Of a stretch of 26,307 nucleotides of DNA, positions 16,468 to 25,129 are shown piece by piece. Position 1 is the stretch's first letter. Each line of letters begins with the position of its first letter. The notes under the pieces were generated by a model. It saw only the letters and a program-made list of their open reading frames with translations, was not told the origin of the DNA and ran no database searches. Origin of the DNA: Bacillota bacterium (lineage in GTDB: Bacteria; Bacillota; Clostridia; Peptostreptococcales; Anaerovoracaceae); contig JAFRLD010000061.1 in NCBI GenBank assembly GCA_017431395.1, positions 1 through 26,307 on the forward strand, written 5' to 3'. The translations under genes were made by a program, and so were the position numbers.

Positions 16468-17040
16468 ATGGGTTACAAAGTGAAAATCGGACTGTCTAAC
16501 AAGCATGTGCATCTGAATGAGAGGGATCGGGATATCTTATTCGGTAAGGATTATGAGCTGACACCAGTCAAACCGCTGGTCCAGCCGGGACAGTTTGCGG
16601 CAGATGAGAAGGTCGACATCGTAGGACCTAAGACCACACTGAAAGGAGTCCGTGTACTTGGACCGCTCCGTCCGGAGACACAGATCGAACTGGCTATGAC
16701 AGATGCGAGAACACTCGGCATCAAAGCACCGGTCAGAGAATCCGGCCATCTGGAAGGAACACCGGGCTGCAAGCTGATCGGACCATGTGGTGAAGTCGAA
16801 CTGGATCACGGCGTGATGATCGCACAGAGACATGTGCATCTGAATCCGGAACAGGCTATTGAAGCAGGCGTGCAGGATCACGATGTCGTATGCCTCAAGA
16901 TCGACGGTGAGAGAGGCCTGATCTTTGATAATGTCGTTGTCAGAGCCGGTGATAAGCATGAGAGAGAAGTGCATCTGGATACCGACGAAGGCAATGCAGC
17001 AGGTTGCGGACCGGACGCTGTCGCCGAGATCATCAAATAA
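16468..17040 (+). CDS. pduL: PduL-type phosphate propanoyltransferase / phosphotransacetylase
   Basis: Transfers an acyl group between acyl-CoA and phosphate, giving acyl phosphate for ATP synthesis by acetate or propionate kinase. The 190-residue protein consists of two beta-barrel domains, each with the zinc-binding HVHL motif (His13/His15 and His122/His124), plus EVHLDTDEGNAAG near the C-terminus. It starts directly at the first domain, without the N-terminal extension that directs PduL into bacterial microcompartments, and no shell gene is nearby. It therefore looks like a cytosolic phosphotransacetylase. An AGGAG site precedes the ATG and a terminator follows. Confidence 0.93.
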   Translation: MGYKVKIGLSNKHVHLNERDRDILFGKDYELTPVKPLVQPGQFAADEKVDIVGPKTTLKGVRVLGPLRPETQIELAMTDARTLGIKAPVRESGHLEGTPGCKLIGPCGEVELDHGVMIAQRHVHLNPEQAIEAGVQDHDVVCLKIDGERGLIFDNVVVRAGDKHEREVHLDTDEGNAAGCGPDAVAEIIK

Positions 17041-17054
17041 ATCGTTCGTTTTAC

Positions 17055-17084
17055 TTGTCATACACCGCTCTGTTGTGAGATAAT
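17055..17084 (+). promoter_or_regulatory. Sigma-A promoter of the giant repeat-protein gene
   Basis: TTGTCA (17055-17060), an 18-nt spacer and GATAAT (17079-17084, 5 of 6) with an extended -10 TGA just upstream (17076-17078). Transcription would begin near 17091, about 57 nt before the GTG start. The elements lie within the pduL terminator hairpin. Confidence 0.6.
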
Positions 17085-17100
17085 AGAGTGGTGTATTTTA
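17061..17100 (+). terminator. Terminator-like hairpin after pduL, overlapping a promoter
   Basis: TACACCGCTCT (17061-17071) pairs with AGAGTGGTGTA (17085-17095) through 11 base pairs, one a G-T wobble, around a 13-nt loop, then TTTTA follows. It starts 20 nt after the pduL stop. The loop contains a promoter -10 element, so the same bases serve two functions. Confidence 0.72.
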
Positions 17101-17133
17101 TATTGGAGCAACTATTGCCTGATTTGTTGAGAC

Positions 17134-17141
17134 AGGGAGGT
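17134..17141 (+). promoter_or_regulatory. Ribosome binding site that fixes the giant gene's start
   Basis: AGGGAGGT lies 6-7 nt before GTG 17148. The next in-frame start upstream, GTG 17088, lies in the descending arm of the pduL terminator and has no ribosome binding site. Confidence 0.8.
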
Positions 17142-17147
17142 AGCAAC

Positions 17148-20100
17148 GTGATTGCCACTGGAAACTGGGGAACATGTGAATGGACGATCTCCGAAGAGGG
17201 AGAACTCATCATCAGCGGCGGTGCTGCAGAAAGCGTATCCGCAGATGGTAAATACCCATGGGATGACTACAGGGCAGAGATCCGCAGGATCGCTTTCGAC
17301 GGACCGGTCACCGGCGTGGTCAGTCTGGTCGGCGCATTTATGAACTGTACATCTCTGGAGGAGGTGGACCTGAATGGACTTGACACGTCGAACACGGTTG
17401 ACCTGAGCTGGCTGCTCTGCGGATGCAGCCGTCTGGAACGGGTAGATCTGTCGATGCTTGATACGAAAAAAGTCGTAGATATGAGCTGCATGTTTCTTTC
17501 CTGCAGGAATCTGCGGGAGGTCATTTTTGGCAGGATCGACACTTCGTCTGTGATGGATATGTCAAAAATGTTCATGTACTGCAGCAGTTTGCATTCGCTG
17601 GATGTTTCCTGCCTGGACAACCGCTCCCTGCAGATGTCAGACGATATGTTCTTTGGCTGCGAGGGGCTGCGCGCCCTTGTTCCGGGCAAAGAGTTTTCCC
17701 TGGGCGGCGGCGGCCGGACGGTCATCGCGATGCCTGAGAGCACAGGCTCAGAAGAAGCCGGTGAGGGGGAAGACCGTGAGATGGTTTCCGACTGGCGGAC
17801 CTCAACAGATGGCGTTCTTTATATTTCCGGCAGTGAATTCACCGTGCGTTACGATGGTAATGGAGCCGGACCCATCCCATCGGAAGAGGGCGAAGAACAG
17901 GAACTGGTCATCACATGCGAAGCGGGAACGCAGCTTCGCGCGAAGCGGGATCAGTTCGAAGTCCCTGCAGACCGGGTCTTCAAGGAATGGAACACCAACC
18001 GGGATGGCAGCGGCAGAACGCTCCTTCCGGGGCAGCTCTTCAATGTGCATTCTGATATGACGCTGTACGCGGTCTGGGCCGGACGGCCGGTCTTCCTGGA
18101 GGTTTACGAGGTCCCGGAGATCGTCTATGGAACTCTGCTTGAGTTAAAAGAGCCACAGATCGATCCGAACCATGGAGAGATCACATCTCTTAAGGCGCAG
18201 ATCAGCGATGTCTCAGACAGCGGCTGGTCCGATTTCGAAAACGACGAGATCCTTCCGGCCTCCCGCAGCGGAGCACGGATCAGATATGTGGCGGAGAATT
18301 TTGTCGGACAGACGGTTTCCGAAGAGAAGACGATCCATATTGACAAAGCAGAGTACGACATGAGCGAAGTGCACTGGGTGCTCCCTGAGGCTCTGACGTT
18401 CGATGGACAGGAGAAGGAAGTCCATCTGGAGGGACTTCCCGAAGGGATCACTGTAGAATACGCAGGCAATGTCGCCAAGGATGTCGGACAGTACACAGCT
18501 TCTGCGATCTATCGGTATGATGAGGCGAATTTCCTGCCGCCGCAGCCGGCTGAGAAGCTGGAGTGGAGCATCACGAAGGGCAGATATGAGATGTCCGATC
18601 TGAACTGGTCGTACATGGAGGCTTTCACATACGATGGGGAGCCAAAAAGCGTTCGGGTAGAGGGGCTTCCGGATGGAACCGTCCCCTATTATTCAGGAGC
18701 GGATGCGGTAGATGCCGGAACCTATATCGCTACCGTCGGTCTGGATTATGATATCGACAATTACAGCCGGCCGGATCCGGTCAAGCCATGTACCTGGAGG
18801 ATCCTCAAGACCTCGCATGATATGAGCGGCGTGCACTGGGAAGGGCCGGAGGCATTCACCTATGACGGGTCGCCAAAAAAAGTCGAACTCAGCGGACTTC
18901 CGGAAGGAGTACACGCGGAGTATACCGGAAACATCGCTGTGGATGCGGGAGCATATATAGCCAGAGCAGCTTTCGTGCTGGATGATCCGGTCAACTATGA
19001 GATCCCGGATCCGGTAGAATTCAGCTGGGAGATCCGCAAGGCAGACCATGATATGAGTGAGACGGTCTGGACGGAGGATCAGCTCGTATATAACGGTGAG
19101 GAGCAGAACATCCATCTGACCGGGGTACCGGAGGGAGTCAGCGTTCTCTATGAAGGAGATACCGGCCTGCTCGCCGGAGAGTATACCGTGCGGGCGGAGT
19201 TCTGCGTTGAGGACCTGAACAACTACAACCAGATGGACCCCATCACCAGGACCTGGCAGATCCGCAAGGCGGATATCGATATGTCACGAGCCCGCTGGAA
19301 CTACAGCAGCCCCTATATTTACAACGGAACAGAGAAGTCCGTAGAGCTCAAGGGACTTCCGGAGCAGATCGAAACGGTCACCTATACCGGTGAACGCGCA
19401 ACGAATGCGGGAAGTTACGTAGCTCATGCGGAGTTTACCTATGATACAGAGAATTATAATCCGCCGGTCATCGAGGACTGCCGGTGGGCGATCCTTAAAG
19501 CGAATCTGAAGCTGCGGGATCTACACTGGGATTATGAAGGCCCGTTCACTTATGACGGGAAGGAGCATGCCGTCAGGATCACAGACCTGCCGGCGAACGC
19601 GTCCGTACAGTACGAAGGAGGAAGTGCGGACAAGGCAGGGACACATGTGGCACGCGCTGTGATCACCCCTGTGGATCCGGACAACTACAACACGCCTCAG
19701 CCTTTGGAATTCCCATGGGAGATCCGCAAGGCAGTATTCGATATTTCAGACAGCTTCTGGAACGAAGCAGAAAAACGCGTATTTGATGGAAGCACCAAGG
19801 CGGTTGCGCTCTGCAATCTGCCGGAGGGTGTGGAGGTCTCCTACGTGGGGAATGAAGCGACGGACGCCGGAGAATACCATGCGAAGGCGGTATTTACCGT
19901 GAAGGATACGGACAACTTCCTCCCGCCGCAGCCCAGAGAGATCACCTGGAGCGTTACACCTTCCCCCATCGATCTGAGCGGAGTCGTCTGGGATTACACC
20001 GGAGCATTCACGTATGACGGGAGTGAGAAGGAGGTCGTCCTCCGGGGACTTCCGGAGGGAGTCACTGCCCGGTATTCCGGGAATGTAGCCAGTGAAGCAG

Positions 20101-21878
20101 GAGAATATGCAGCAGAGGCGATCCTCATGCCACCGGAGGGCAGCAGTTTCAGAGAGACGAAAATCCTTGGCAAAGTCTGGAGGATCAATCGTGCGGATAT
20201 CGACGTCAGCGAAGCTAAGTGGGTCTGCCCGGAGGAGTTCGTCTATGACGGCATGCTGAAGGAGATCTCCCTCACAGGCCTTCCGGACAACGTCCGTGTG
20301 GAGTATACAGGCCATCAGGCAGTGGATGCCGGGACCTATGATGCTCAGGCGGTCCTGATCCCATATGATCAGGACAACTATAATGTGCCGCATGTAGCAG
20401 GGTATCGCTGGAATATCGCCAAGGCGGACATCGATATCAGCGGAGCGACCTGGTCCGGATACGATACGTTCGTTTATGACGGGACCGTGCACCGGGTGAT
20501 CCTGAAGAATCTCCCGGAATCGGTCGAAGCAGTATATGAAGGAAATGCAGCGACAGATGCGGGCAACTATATAGCCACGGCAGAATTCCTGCCAAAGGAT
20601 CCTGACAACTTCAACCCGCCGCACAGCCAGCAATATGAGTGGTCCATCGCCAAAGCACAGCTTCGCGCGGATGGAGTCTACTGGACGAACGCCGGAGACG
20701 ATCTGGTCTATAACGGTCAGGAGCACAGCATCCGGCCTGCCGGCCTGCCGCAGGGAGTGAAGGCAGTCTGCAAGGGCAATACGGCGGTCAACGCCGGGCA
20801 GTATATCGCGAGTGCCGTTCTGGAACCGGATGACTACATCAATTACCTGCCATGTGTGATCGACCCTTATCGCTGGGAGATCGAGAAGGCGGAGATCGAT
20901 ATCTCCGAGGTGATGTGGGCGTCCTCAGGGGACCTCGTATATGACGGGACATTGAAGGTCGTAGGACTGACCGGACTCTCAGATGATGTGACGGTAGAAT
21001 ATGAAAACAACGTGGCGACGGATGCCGGGACCTATCATGCGTCCGCCGTCCTGTCGACGCAGAACCAGAACTATACGGCACCGGAGATCGAAGGATGTAC
21101 ATGGACGATCGCTAAAGCCGTTCCGGATATCTCCGGCGTCACCTGGAGCTATGCTTTCGAATTCACCTATGACGGTTATGAGAAGAGCGTGGAACTGCTC
21201 GATCTGCCTGAGGGCATGAGTGCCAAGTATCAGGGCAATGCGGCGATCGAAGCCGGCGATTATGTGGCAGAAGCCACTCTGATCATGGAAGATTCCATGA
21301 ACTATGAAGCACCGGAGGTTTCCCCGCTGCAGTGGACGATCGCTAAGCGCGATTATGATCTGAGCACAGCGGTATGGATCGGAGCGGATGGTTTCGTATA
21401 CGATGGGACCGCGAAATCCGTCGAGCTTACCGGACTGGAAGACAGCCTTGAACCGATCTATCAGGACAATGTTGCCATCGACGCAGGGACCTATACCGCA
21501 TCGGCCAGATTCCTGTATGATGAGAACAACTATAATCCTCCACAGGATCTGACCTGTACCTGGGAGATCCGCAAAGCTCCGCTTGATGTGAGCGGTGTAC
21601 GCTGGAACTACGATGGGCCGATCAAGGCGAATGGCAGGAACAAAACCGTAACCTTACTGACCGATGGAACGGATCAGGGCTTCATGGGCAAGATGTTCGG
21701 CCGGGGCAAGGATGTGAACTATCCGGGACTTCCGGAAGGGACGACCGTGCGGTACGAAGGAAATACCGCGAAAGCTCCGGGAACATACGAAGCGAAAGCC
21801 TACCTGACAGTGCCGCCGATGCCAAATCATGAAGTGACAGGACCGATCTGTCTGACATGGGAAATCATCGATGACTGA
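17148..21878 (+). CDS. Giant BspA-like LRR and tandem-repeat protein without visible signal peptide
   Basis: A 1576-residue, visibly acidic protein. Domains in order: an N-terminal segment typical of mature BspA proteins (TGNWGTCEWTISEEGEL); DUF285-type leucine-rich repeats at about 17290-17690 (LDTSxxVDMSxMFxxCxxL units); an InlB/Listeria-Bacteroides B-repeat at 17835-18077 (FTVRYDGNG to LYAVW); an Ig-like segment of about 90 residues; and fifteen tandem ~77-residue units from 18348. Such architectures normally occur in secreted adhesins, yet there is no N-terminal hydrophobic segment, no LPxTG, no membrane helix and no cell-wall-binding repeat. GTG 17148 is chosen for its AGGGAGGT site. The last 8 nt overlap cls. 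Function is unknown; adhesion is only family inference. Confidence 0.88.
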   Translation: MIATGNWGTCEWTISEEGELIISGGAAESVSADGKYPWDDYRAEIRRIAFDGPVTGVVSLVGAFMNCTSLEEVDLNGLDTSNTVDLSWLLCGCSRLERVDLSMLDTKKVVDMSCMFLSCRNLREVIFGRIDTSSVMDMSKMFMYCSSLHSLDVSCLDNRSLQMSDDMFFGCEGLRALVPGKEFSLGGGGRTVIAMPESTGSEEAGEGEDREMVSDWRTSTDGVLYISGSEFTVRYDGNGAGPIPSEEGEEQELVITCEAGTQLRAKRDQFEVPADRVFKEWNTNRDGSGRTLLPGQLFNVHSDMTLYAVWAGRPVFLEVYEVPEIVYGTLLELKEPQIDPNHGEITSLKAQISDVSDSGWSDFENDEILPASRSGARIRYVAENFVGQTVSEEKTIHIDKAEYDMSEVHWVLPEALTFDGQEKEVHLEGLPEGITVEYAGNVAKDVGQYTASAIYRYDEANFLPPQPAEKLEWSITKGRYEMSDLNWSYMEAFTYDGEPKSVRVEGLPDGTVPYYSGADAVDAGTYIATVGLDYDIDNYSRPDPVKPCTWRILKTSHDMSGVHWEGPEAFTYDGSPKKVELSGLPEGVHAEYTGNIAVDAGAYIARAAFVLDDPVNYEIPDPVEFSWEIRKADHDMSETVWTEDQLVYNGEEQNIHLTGVPEGVSVLYEGDTGLLAGEYTVRAEFCVEDLNNYNQMDPITRTWQIRKADIDMSRARWNYSSPYIYNGTEKSVELKGLPEQIETVTYTGERATNAGSYVAHAEFTYDTENYNPPVIEDCRWAILKANLKLRDLHWDYEGPFTYDGKEHAVRITDLPANASVQYEGGSADKAGTHVARAVITPVDPDNYNTPQPLEFPWEIRKAVFDISDSFWNEAEKRVFDGSTKAVALCNLPEGVEVSYVGNEATDAGEYHAKAVFTVKDTDNFLPPQPREITWSVTPSPIDLSGVVWDYTGAFTYDGSEKEVVLRGLPEGVTARYSGNVASEAGEYAAEAILMPPEGSSFRETKILGKVWRINRADIDVSEAKWVCPEEFVYDGMLKEISLTGLPDNVRVEYTGHQAVDAGTYDAQAVLIPYDQDNYNVPHVAGYRWNIAKADIDISGATWSGYDTFVYDGTVHRVILKNLPESVEAVYEGNAATDAGNYIATAEFLPKDPDNFNPPHSQQYEWSIAKAQLRADGVYWTNAGDDLVYNGQEHSIRPAGLPQGVKAVCKGNTAVNAGQYIASAVLEPDDYINYLPCVIDPYRWEIEKAEIDISEVMWASSGDLVYDGTLKVVGLTGLSDDVTVEYENNVATDAGTYHASAVLSTQNQNYTAPEIEGCTWTIAKAVPDISGVTWSYAFEFTYDGYEKSVELLDLPEGMSAKYQGNAAIEAGDYVAEATLIMEDSMNYEAPEVSPLQWTIAKRDYDLSTAVWIGADGFVYDGTAKSVELTGLEDSLEPIYQDNVAIDAGTYTASARFLYDENNYNPPQDLTCTWEIRKAPLDVSGVRWNYDGPIKANGRNKTVTLLTDGTDQGFMGKMFGRGKDVNYPGLPEGTTVRYEGNTAKAPGTYEAKAYLTVPPMPNHEVTGPICLTWEIIDD
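18348..21875 (+). repeat. Fifteen tandem ~77-residue protein repeats (MBG-like) inside the giant gene
   Basis: Units begin at 18348, 18579, 18810, 19041, 19269, 19500, 19731, 19962, 20193, 20424, 20655, 20889, 21117, 21348 and 21576. Lengths are 76-78 residues, except the last, which is 100. The shared pattern is a D-[IM]-S start, a W near position 10, F-x-YDG, a GLPEG turn, V-x-Y-x-GN, a DAGxY motif, then NYxxP and W-x-I-x-K at the end. Units are well diverged in DNA, so the array is old rather than recently slipped. The pattern resembles MBG-type beta domains of Gram-positive surface proteins. Confidence 0.92.
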
Positions 21879-23469
21879 AGTAAGCAGAAACTTTAATAAT
21901 ACAGAGAAAGATACTTTGCTCAGAAAACTGAAGGGTCTGTGGAAGCTGCTGTTCGGACGAACGACCATGTTCGTCCTGCTGCTGCTGATACAGTCCTTCG
22001 CTCTGTTTGGGGGTTTCGCGCTCCTCGGTTCCAAGGTCATCGCGATCAACTATGGCATTGGTATCGTGTCTGTCCTGATCCTGATCTACCTGCTCAACGC
22101 GCGCTCTGATGCCAATTTCAAGCTGATGTGGATCATACTGATAGCATCCGTTCCGGTATTCGGCGTAACGCTTTTTTTGTACACAAGGATACAGCCGGGA
22201 ACCGCGACCAGGTCCAATCAGGTCGAACGGATCCTTGAGGAGCAGAGGACCTATCTGGCACCGGCCAGACACACGATCGAAACGGAGCTGGTCGACGCGA
22301 GACAGGAATACGGTATCTTCAAATATATATATGAGGAAGGCCACTACCCATCCTATGAGAATGCCAGCGTGAAGTATTTCCCTCTGGGAGAAGCGAAATT
22401 CGCCGAGATGCTGAGGCAGCTGGAGCGGGCCGAGAAATTCATCTTTTTAGAGTATTTCATCATCGACAAGGGAGAGATGTGGGACGCCGTATTGAAGGTG
22501 TTAAAGAATAAGGTGGCACAGGGTGTGGAGGTCCGGCTCATGTATGACGGGACCTGCACGCTGTCGCTTCTTCCTATCGGGTTCCCGAAGGAGATGGAAG
22601 CGCTCGGGATACGGTGCAAAGTGTTCTCACCAATGCGCCCGTTTCTTTCAACGCACCAGAATAACCGCGATCACAGAAAGATCCTGGTCATCGATGGGCG
22701 CGTCGCATTCACAGGGGGAGTCAATCTGGCGGATGAGTATATCAACCGAAGAGAACGGTTCGGGCACTGGAAGGATGCGGCGATCATGGTCGGAGGCAGG
22801 GCCGTGGACAGCTTTACCCTCATGTTCCTTCAGATGTGGAATATCGGTGAGACAAGGCGAGAGGACTATCACAGGTATATTATCGCATCCGATGATGAGG
22901 TCGATCCCGGCATGAAGCGGGGAGGCCTGATCGCCCCATATGGCGACAGCCCGCTAGATCAGGAAGAGGTCGGAGAGAAGGTCTATCTGGACATCATCAA
23001 CCGGGCAGAGGCATATGTCCACATCATGACCCCTTACCTAATCCTGACGGAAACGATGATCCATTCGCTGATCTTCGCAGCACAGAGGGGGATCGAGGTA
23101 AAGATCATCCTTCCGCATATACCGGATAAAAAATACGCTTACTGGCTGGCCAGAACATACTATAGCGAACTGATCAGCGGCGGCGTCAAGATCTATGAGT
23201 ATACCCCCGGATTCGTTCATTCGAAGGTTTTCGCCAGCGATGACAGGAAGGCCGTTGTCGGCACGATCAACATGGACTACCGGAGCCTGTACCTGCACTT
23301 CGAATGTGCGGCATATATATACAATAATCCGGTCGTGGATGATATAGAAAAAGATTTTCAGCAAACGCTGGAGATGTGCCAGAGGATCACACTGCAGAAC
23401 TGCAGGAACTACAGCCTGCCGGCACGTTTCGCGGGCAGAGCACTGCGGATCGTCGCTCCTCTGATGTAG
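21871..23469 (+). CDS. cls: Cardiolipin synthase, phospholipase D family
   Basis: Membrane enzyme that condenses two phosphatidylglycerol molecules into cardiolipin and glycerol. The 532-residue protein has two N-terminal hydrophobic helices (about residues 28-90) with the PLDc_N region, then two HKD catalytic motifs: HRKILVID (His268, Lys270, Asp275) and HSKVFASD (His450, Lys452, Asp457). The spacing and length are typical. The ATG lies inside the end of the preceding gene (ATGACTGA, 8-nt overlap) and has only a weak GGGA site, so translation is probably coupled to the giant repeat protein. The next gene starts 28 nt downstream. Confidence 0.95.
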   Translation: MTEVSRNFNNTEKDTLLRKLKGLWKLLFGRTTMFVLLLLIQSFALFGGFALLGSKVIAINYGIGIVSVLILIYLLNARSDANFKLMWIILIASVPVFGVTLFLYTRIQPGTATRSNQVERILEEQRTYLAPARHTIETELVDARQEYGIFKYIYEEGHYPSYENASVKYFPLGEAKFAEMLRQLERAEKFIFLEYFIIDKGEMWDAVLKVLKNKVAQGVEVRLMYDGTCTLSLLPIGFPKEMEALGIRCKVFSPMRPFLSTHQNNRDHRKILVIDGRVAFTGGVNLADEYINRRERFGHWKDAAIMVGGRAVDSFTLMFLQMWNIGETRREDYHRYIIASDDEVDPGMKRGGLIAPYGDSPLDQEEVGEKVYLDIINRAEAYVHIMTPYLILTETMIHSLIFAAQRGIEVKIILPHIPDKKYAYWLARTYYSELISGGVKIYEYTPGFVHSKVFASDDRKAVVGTINMDYRSLYLHFECAAYIYNNPVVDDIEKDFQQTLEMCQRITLQNCRNYSLPARFAGRALRIVAPLM

Positions 23470-23497: not shown

Positions 23498-25129
23498 ATG
23501 ACACAGAAATCTTTAGTCAAAGGCGCAGCGGTACTGGCTGCTGCGGGAATCATCGTCAAGGTGTTCGGAGCTGCGTTCCGGATCCTTTTGGCGAGTTTTA
23601 TAACCGATGAAGGCATGGCGTATTATTCACCTGCCTACTATATCTATGCGGTGCTCCTTGTCGTTTCGACTTCAGGTATCCCGATCGCCATATCGAGAAT
23701 GGTCTCTGAGCGATATGCGATCGGAAGATTTGATGAAGCGGACCGGGTGTTCCGCATTTCGCGATGGCTGATGATCGGTCTTGGCGCCGCGGGTTTTATC
23801 GTGCTGTTCTTCTTCGCAGGAGCCATTGCGTCCGCTACCAGGCTGGAAGGCTCGGAACTCGCCATGCAGGCGACAGCGCCGGCGCTGCTTCTGGTCCCGA
23901 TCATGTCATCCTACCGGGGATACTTCCAGGGACAGCAGCTGATGGCGCCTACCGCGCTGTCACAAACCGTCGAGCAGATCTTCCGGGTCGTCTTCGGACT
24001 GCTTCTGGCCGTGCTCCTGATGCGAGGGACGTTATTCGCAGCTTCATTCACAGATCTGCAAAGGGGAGCAGCAGGCGGATGCTTCGGAGCATCTGCCGGA
24101 GCCGTCGGTGGGCTGGCGGTCATGATCTTTATTTATCTTCTTGCCCGTAAGGAACTGAAGCAGAGGATCCGCCGGAGCACCGGAGGGGAACGCGAATCTG
24201 CGGGCTCGATCCTCAAATCGATTATTCTGATCGCTGTACCGATCACCATTGGGGCGACGTTGATGCCGCTTGTCAATCTGGTCGATGCGACCGTCGTGAA
24301 TACGAGACTGCTTCATGCAGGGTTTGAGCCGTCGGTTGCCAAAGCTCTCTATGGCCAGCTGACCGGATTCTGCGAGCCGATCGTCGCACTGCCACAGGTC
24401 CTTATGTCCGCGATCGTCATGAGCATCGTTCCGATGGTCGCTGCAGCGAACAAGGTGAATGATACAGAGCGCCTTCATGGGACGATATCGCTGGGACTCC
24501 GGATGTCAACGATCATCGCGTTCCCATGCGCGATCGGTCTGATCATTCTCGCTAAGCCTGCCCTGACCATGCTGTTCTTTACCCAGAAGGAGAGCGCGGC
24601 CAATGCGGCACCAAGCCTGCAGGTCCTCGGGGCCAGCTTCATACTGCTCGCATTGATCACGATCATGACAGGGATCCTGCAGGGAGTGGGCAAGCAGGGG
24701 TATCCGGTCATCAATCTGTTCATTGGCCTTTTATTTAAGGTCGTGCTGACATGGGTCCTGGTCGGACAGCCGGAGATCAATGTCGTGGGAGCACCTCTGG
24801 GAACGATGGCGGCCTATCTGATCGCAGCTGCGCTCGATCTCATTTGTGTCATCCGGTTTACATCTGTGAAGCTTCCTTTCCATTTGATGATCACGAAACC
24901 TTTCATTTCGGCTGCGGTCATGGGGATCTTCGTCTGGGGAGCATACAAAGGTCTGGTCTGGCTTACCGGCAGCAATACACTATCGACCCTGGCAGCGATC
25001 GTGATCGGAGTAGCTGTATACGGAGTCATGATCATCCGGACGAAGACTATTCTCAGAGAGGAAATGATGGAGCTTTCGATCGGCCGAAAACTGGTGTCCG
25101 TCGGTGACCGGCTGCACCTGTGGAAATGA
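23498..25129 (+). CDS. SpoVB/MurJ-like polysaccharide flippase (MOP superfamily)
   Basis: Integral membrane transporter of 543 residues with about a dozen or more hydrophobic helices. It resembles the polysaccharide biosynthesis (SpoVB/YabM) branch of the MOP superfamily: SLVKGAAVLAAAGIIVKVFG at the N-terminus, PIAISRMVSERYAIG, PALLLVPIMSSYRGYFQG and TVEQIFRVVFGL are typical. Relatives flip lipid-linked oligosaccharides, including peptidoglycan precursors. In Bacillus the homologue yabM precedes mazG and rqcP, and here it precedes hup and rqcP. It could serve peptidoglycan or another envelope polymer. The start ATG has a poor ribosome binding site (AAGAGA). Confidence 0.88.
   Translation: MTQKSLVKGAAVLAAAGIIVKVFGAAFRILLASFITDEGMAYYSPAYYIYAVLLVVSTSGIPIAISRMVSERYAIGRFDEADRVFRISRWLMIGLGAAGFIVLFFFAGAIASATRLEGSELAMQATAPALLLVPIMSSYRGYFQGQQLMAPTALSQTVEQIFRVVFGLLLAVLLMRGTLFAASFTDLQRGAAGGCFGASAGAVGGLAVMIFIYLLARKELKQRIRRSTGGERESAGSILKSIILIAVPITIGATLMPLVNLVDATVVNTRLLHAGFEPSVAKALYGQLTGFCEPIVALPQVLMSAIVMSIVPMVAAANKVNDTERLHGTISLGLRMSTIIAFPCAIGLIILAKPALTMLFFTQKESAANAAPSLQVLGASFILLALITIMTGILQGVGKQGYPVINLFIGLLFKVVLTWVLVGQPEINVVGAPLGTMAAYLIAAALDLICVIRFTSVKLPFHLMITKPFISAAVMGIFVWGAYKGLVWLTGSNTLSTLAAIVIGVAVYGVMIIRTKTILREEMMELSIGRKLVSVGDRLHLWK

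Follow-up and report, generated by a model that had tools for sequence, protein, structure and literature searches.

The window, by which we mean the whole stretch of 26,307 nucleotides that was analysed, encodes a giant gut-bacterial protein that has the build of a surface adhesin and carries no export signal (Table 1). The initial annotation had described this combination, and we confirmed that it reflects neither an error nor a damaged gene. Loci of the window's type run in the order lon, a gene that we take to be engB-like, a small gene, a phosphoribosyltransferase gene, in some cases pduL, the repeat gene, cls and a gene for a SpoVB-like flippase. The pduL gene (PTAC), at 16468-17040 in the window, was observed between the phosphoribosyltransferase and repeat genes in some species and is absent there in L033 and L034.

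Table 1. Coordinates of the repeat gene, its parts and its neighbours within the window.
Feature	Position	Strand	Remarks
Promoter-like TTGTCA-18-GATAAT, TG before second hexamer	17055..17084	+	consensus match only
17-bp hairpin with T-rich tail, probable pduL terminator	17060..17096	+	overlaps promoter-like site and alternative start 17088
Shine-Dalgarno AGGGAGGT before GTG 17148	17134..17141	+	GGAGG-type site in orthologues printed
Leaderless DUF285 / B-repeat / Ig-like / 15x MBG-like repeat protein	17148..21878	+	open frame, 1576 aa
DUF285 (BspA/PARCEL-type) leucine-rich repeats, residues 59-172	17322..17663	+	
Listeria-Bacteroides (InlB B-type) repeat, residues 231-309, sub-threshold	17838..18074	+	Flg_new profile
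15 MBG-like beta-sandwich repeats, ~77 aa each	18336..21875	+	repeat HMM
23-aa loop insert in repeat 15, residues 1504-1526	21657..21725	+	conserved glycine-hydrophobic-basic-hydrophobic core
Cardiolipin synthase (cls)	21871..23469	+	TIGR04265, 326 bits vs 290; start overlaps repeat-protein stop, 8 nt
SpoVB/MurJ-like flippase, conserved downstream neighbour	23498..25129	+	below NCBIfam cut-offs

A protein search with the window protein returned 187 matches at E up to 1e-10, and the best 120 were examined. We treated the best 55 of the 187 (P0004-P0058) as a family with 34-99% identity to the window protein, P0004 being that protein itself or a near copy. Relatives are annotated as 'BspA family leucine-rich repeat surface protein', and one sister-clade member was deposited as Mogibacterium sp., a genus that belongs to Anaerovoracaceae. 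Within the window's genus 19 of 49 genomes had any match, many via DUF285 alone, while by our reading of the match table 11 of the 49, including the window's, hold family-type matches. The N-terminal profile was matched in 44 of 47 genomes of the sister genus; the E value was 2e-141 or lower for 43, and the match in G331 was weak. Matches to the sequence query in a sampled search (E 1e-30) were observed in 23 of 296 genomes and 2 of 92 genera, and a profile search over 393 genomes of the order matched at least 37 genomes in at least 6 of 158 genera; among the matches listed, those in genera beyond the two covered the DUF285 range only. Our literature search, which covered titles and the openings of abstracts, found no account of this family. 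In one genome (G004) the gene is present twice, as divergent copies at the cls locus (L160) and elsewhere (L159), the latter with a stop followed by a further repeat-bearing frame. Two loci of the window's genus (L015, L029) contain a frame with DUF285 repeats that by eye resembles a Ser/Thr kinase.

The adhesin-like make-up first described for the protein (DUF285 repeats, a B-repeat, an Ig-like segment and 15 MBG-like repeats) was borne out, with the B-repeat weak and below threshold. DUF285 (PF03382) scored 47-49 bits (49.1 in one run) against a cut-off of 25 and was matched in all 32 aligned family members at E 0.01, and the window protein has the LRR fold by which DUF285, PARCEL or BspA-type LRR proteins are recognised. 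The B-repeat (Flg_new) reached 19.3 bits against a cut-off of 27, with 14 of the 32 aligned members matching at E 0.01. The first of the 15 repeats found with the repeat HMM starts near residue 399; Pfam MBG_3 gave 29.2 bits against a cut-off of 25 for the protein, with no single stretch significant alone. Residues 1091-1576, within the MBG-like repeats, were modelled with a mean pLDDT of 88.2. The Pfam family KH_PARP14_3 (PF23249) is precomputed on 54 of the 55 family members, apparently as a false match to the MBG-like repeats.

GTG 17148 had been proposed as the best-supported start, and the orthologues agree, as they retain this start together with a GGAGG-type site. Nine loci have a start equivalent to 17148 within a few codons (L031, L032, L034, L033, L157, L163, L164, L161, L160). 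The suggested comparison of orthologue N-termini was run and showed that syntenic orthologues start alike, several with a stop or a gene just upstream: a stop six codons before the GTG in L034, a TAA immediately 5' of the ATG in L164, and an ATG that overlaps the pduL stop in L160/L041. The predicted structure has its first strand from residue 3, with a mean pLDDT of 93 over residues 1-10 and 96 over residues 11-20.

Signal-like segments were defined as 11 uncharged residues with a mean Kyte-Doolittle value of at least 1.9 inside the first 50 residues. None was found by this simple hydrophobicity rule in the first 50 residues of the window protein, nor a lipobox in the first 40, an LPxTG-type motif in the last 50 or a wall-binding Pfam domain anywhere in it. 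No transmembrane segment was found in the protein either, its top 19-residue Kyte-Doolittle mean being 1.31 versus 2.4 in the two adjoining membrane proteins. These hydrophobicity, motif and Pfam scans uphold the earlier statement that signal peptide, LPxTG, membrane helix and wall-binding repeat are all missing, and the window protein has neither the N-terminal signal peptide nor the lipobox by which a BspA-type surface protein is recognised. The family is alike in this respect, with a signal-like N-terminus in 0 of 55 members by the same rule, a top 19-residue mean of 1.61 and no hit to any of 9 sortase-type motifs among the 50 C-terminal residues of the 55 rows. Six entries (P0027, P0034, P0036, P0043, P0052, P0054) have longer N-termini as listed, none of them signal-like by the rule, and were taken as over-extended starts. 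A more permissive scan, over the N-terminal 90 residues of stop-to-stop frames, flagged 5 of 32 frames; by inspection, four of these (the window, L031, L032, L034) were flagged for an internal LRR segment at residues ~54-65 that is confidently folded in the model, and in the fifth (L159) the flagged stretch lies upstream of the likely start. The initial annotation had named orthologues with a signal encoded in another frame just upstream as the finding that would count against it, and no signal-like segment was found in any frame of the 150 nt upstream at 8 loci, the window included.

Signal-like N-termini were observed in 48 of the 65 next-best matches after the family (the remainder of the best 120 of 187 matches, same rule). 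Among the other 17, some entries look truncated or fused and some are probably mis-started, and three (P0059, P0060, P0062) start directly in the domain; DUF285 proteins that are predicted to have no leader are not confined to the 55-member family. Across 12 genomes with a family gene, all four DUF285 paralogues found begin with signal-like sequences (L200/L026 and L027 scored by the rule, L201 and L214 judged by eye), and in 8 of the 12 the family gene was the only DUF285 locus found. A DUF285 gene from a genome without a family gene (L012) was also signal-like by the rule. The weaker DUF285-range matches of the genus (L013-L019, L028-L030), three of which (L013-L015) have an open 5' end, stand outside this classification of N-termini.

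The repeat gene is under purifying selection. Between the window and four orthologues dN/dS was 0.09-0.15, and 0.07-0.08 for cls, with synonymous sites near saturation. Values of pN/pS were 0.21-0.31 for the repeat gene versus 0.15-0.18 for cls, and 0.25-0.31 versus 0.10 for lon in the two pairs compared. Each of the 15 repeats best matched the same-numbered repeat in the four orthologues (60 of 60 comparisons), while mean identity between repeats within the protein was ~40% among BLAST hits. Every one of the 23 rows in the window's clade has 15 repeats, and 21 of the 24 sister-clade rows have 23, the exceptions being P0054 with 22 and the apparently truncated P0056 and P0058 with 18 and 15; the other 8 family rows had 14 to 23 repeats. 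This fixed number may be partly explained by the low inter-repeat identity (~40%), which limits slippage.

It is near certain that the window protein is leaderless, conserved and functional. The leaderless state is kept in relatives of two related groups, and the protein therefore probably works inside the cell or leaves it by an unknown route. Of the three options offered initially, a cytoplasmic location is the best supported, and we lean slightly towards it because the protein has no Sec signal and the genomes hold no general alternative route. Our best reading of the sequences is that the repeat protein would be a rod in the cytosol whose BspA-type ancestor was secreted, and the 48 signal-like proteins among the 65 next-best matches make an ancient loss of the signal plausible. 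Against a cytosolic rod stand the recognised domains, every one of them typical of exported proteins, the presence of sortases, and a downstream neighbour that differs between genera (cls or CNNM).

Signal-independent export, the second option, is possible but appreciably less probable. The protein would then be a surface adhesin that gets out through lysis or along an unrecognised signal-independent route, to attach to the surface afterwards. Each of its domain types (DUF285, B-repeat, Ig-like, MBG) is a surface-protein module, the passages cited from PMC2996958 predict most PARCEL/DUF285 domains to be external, and the gene evolves faster than lon in the two pairs given above. However, no anchor was found, the DUF285 paralogues found in these genomes do use signals, the repeat number is constant within the two main clades, and the export genes searched for are not general. 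EssC (TIGR03928) was above cut-off in 2 of 25 genomes with the family, FlhA in 0 of 22, and no second complete SecA (PF07517) was found in 22 genomes, of which G013 has an extra 224-aa fragment, G034 two fragments and G042 none above cut-off. Sortases were above cut-off in 21 of 22 genomes. Many of the assemblies are incomplete and an absence says little about any single genome, but as a set these counts suggest that T7SS, SecA2 and flagellar routes are none of them general in the genomes that hold the family.

We also considered whether the protein might be a cytosolic relic, kept merely through translational coupling to the membrane-protein gene behind it. The repeat gene is indeed tightly coupled to that gene at most loci. 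All 8 junctions examined have its stop overlapping the start of cls (8 nt in seven, 14 nt in L157), while at the cls locus of G004 (L041/L160) there is no overlap and the repeat gene ends ~600 nt before cls. In the sister genus (L137-L156) the repeat gene directly precedes a CNNM-family gene, after which comes secA, and has on its other side a metNIQ-type transporter cluster that is often accompanied by a racemase-like gene. At 17 of 19 loci the repeat stop and the CNNM-family start are no more than 25 nt apart; the twentieth locus showed no CNNM gene. Selection at the amino-acid level and the fixed repeats nevertheless make a relic improbable, and the long frame is not needed for cls, because related species without the repeat gene have cls after the phosphoribosyltransferase gene or pduL, at times with a gap.

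A targeting signal supplied by a start further upstream, or by a frameshifted leader, is more improbable still. The window frame is open to 17079, where the in-frame stop at 17076-17078 closes it, and a frame from GTG 17088 would encode 1596 aa. The earlier description of this longer frame as closed upstream and without a signal was correct. GTG 17088 sits within the hairpin at 17060-17096 (-22.6 kcal/mol, z -5.9 for 17041-17105), which probably terminates the upstream pduL gene and resembles by eye an inverted repeat in L031, L032, L033, L157 and L164. Positions 17079-17147 lie partly in this terminator-like hairpin and the remainder is unconserved as protein. A counterpart of the 17088 start is absent in L034, L033, L163, L164 and L160, where the frame is closed or startless just upstream, and the frames of the sister genus differ 5' of the start. 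Across 17055-17096 a promoter-like site is nested in the hairpin 3' of pduL, and the loop TTGTGAGATAAT is nearly identical by eye at several orthologous loci. The third option, a signal lost recently through a frameshift, a mutated start or a sequencing error, or else a pseudogene, has a negligible probability and is refuted for this locus by the orthologues, because the leaderless start is family-wide and the gene is under purifying selection, with no signal-like upstream frame at the 8 loci, although the domain start and the start of the mature part in signal-bearing relatives are only a few residues apart.

For a protein that stays in the cytoplasm we propose the role of a fixed-length tether. 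It would form a long, stiff rod of Ig-like domains, 15 here and 23 in the sister genus, whose N-terminal LRR head probably binds a partner protein. The rod would keep a set spacing between this partner and a second site, which may be the membrane, reached via a conserved basic-hydrophobic loop in one repeat. Put together as a cytoplasmic ruler, in which LRR head and fixed-number rod set the distance of the bound protein from the membrane, docked by the loop and made with an envelope enzyme (cardiolipin synthase here, the CNNM-family protein encoded next to secA in the sister genus), the idea is speculative and we consider the whole of it unlikely.

The loop insert is carried by one repeat in 53 of 55 family members and is by eye the same loop. 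It sits in repeat 15 of 15 in the window's clade, and the 21 sister-clade rows that count 23 repeats have it in repeat 19. A glycine, hydrophobic residues and a basic-hydrophobic pair make up the core of the insert; the net charge of the protein is about -9 per 100 residues, and the insert is unstructured in the model (pLDDT <50, model residues 418-430). A loop pattern matched at the insert in 44 of 55 proteins, a descriptive count, as the pattern was written after the inserts had been seen. A membrane-targeting helix was unsupported, as the 11-residue helical moment exceeded composition shuffles at p <0.05 in 1 of 53 inserts; this test took the wrong repeat in P0024, P0033, P0039 and P0056, which are among the 53, and likewise in P0020, which then had no testable window. 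The insert is visible in P0020, P0024, P0033 and P0039, and none is seen in P0056 and P0058, both of which look truncated. A resemblance of the loop to the C-terminus of MinD was considered; by eye the motif is not seen in the MinD-family C-termini of 7 genomes, and we base no claim on it.

If the protein is cytosolic, the name 'BspA family leucine-rich repeat surface protein' would be wrong for a gene that is near-universal in one genus, and giant Ig-rods would play an intracellular role in bacteria. We know of no MBG rod in the BspA-like proteins of Trichomonas. Some of those entries resemble the window protein in having neither signal peptide nor membrane segment, and their export route is left open in the part of the account cited here; they differ in being eukaryotic and in having LRRs of the TpLRR type (PMC2843621). 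Closer are the 'untargeted' PARCEL/DUF285 ORFs (category H, BMC Genomics 2010), for which the passages cited leave open a pseudogene, a cytoplasmic protein or an annotation artefact (PMC2996958). They share DUF285-type repeats and the lack of a membrane-targeting sequence, and here too targeted forms occur in the same genomes, whereas the present proteins, as far as that text goes, differ in forming a defined orthologous family, mostly of 1.5-2.4 thousand residues, with MBG-like rods, purifying selection and a near-universal presence in one genus. Because the family is so defined, selected and distributed, the pseudogene and artefact options are excluded for this lineage, and with this clean case the question becomes one for a localisation experiment. 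Fibrillar adhesins, for which MBG and Flg_new are treated as stalk domains in the sections cited, are likewise of great length and combine a binding-type region at the N-terminus with a repeat stalk, here of 15 MBG-like repeats; unlike them, as described there, the family has no anchor or signal peptide that we could find, and its repeat number is fixed in the two main clades (PMC9210967). Periscope proteins are also tandem-domain rods and are described, in the portion cited, as surface proteins of variable length, whereas here the repeats are ~40% identical and their number is constant within the main clades (PMC8201768).
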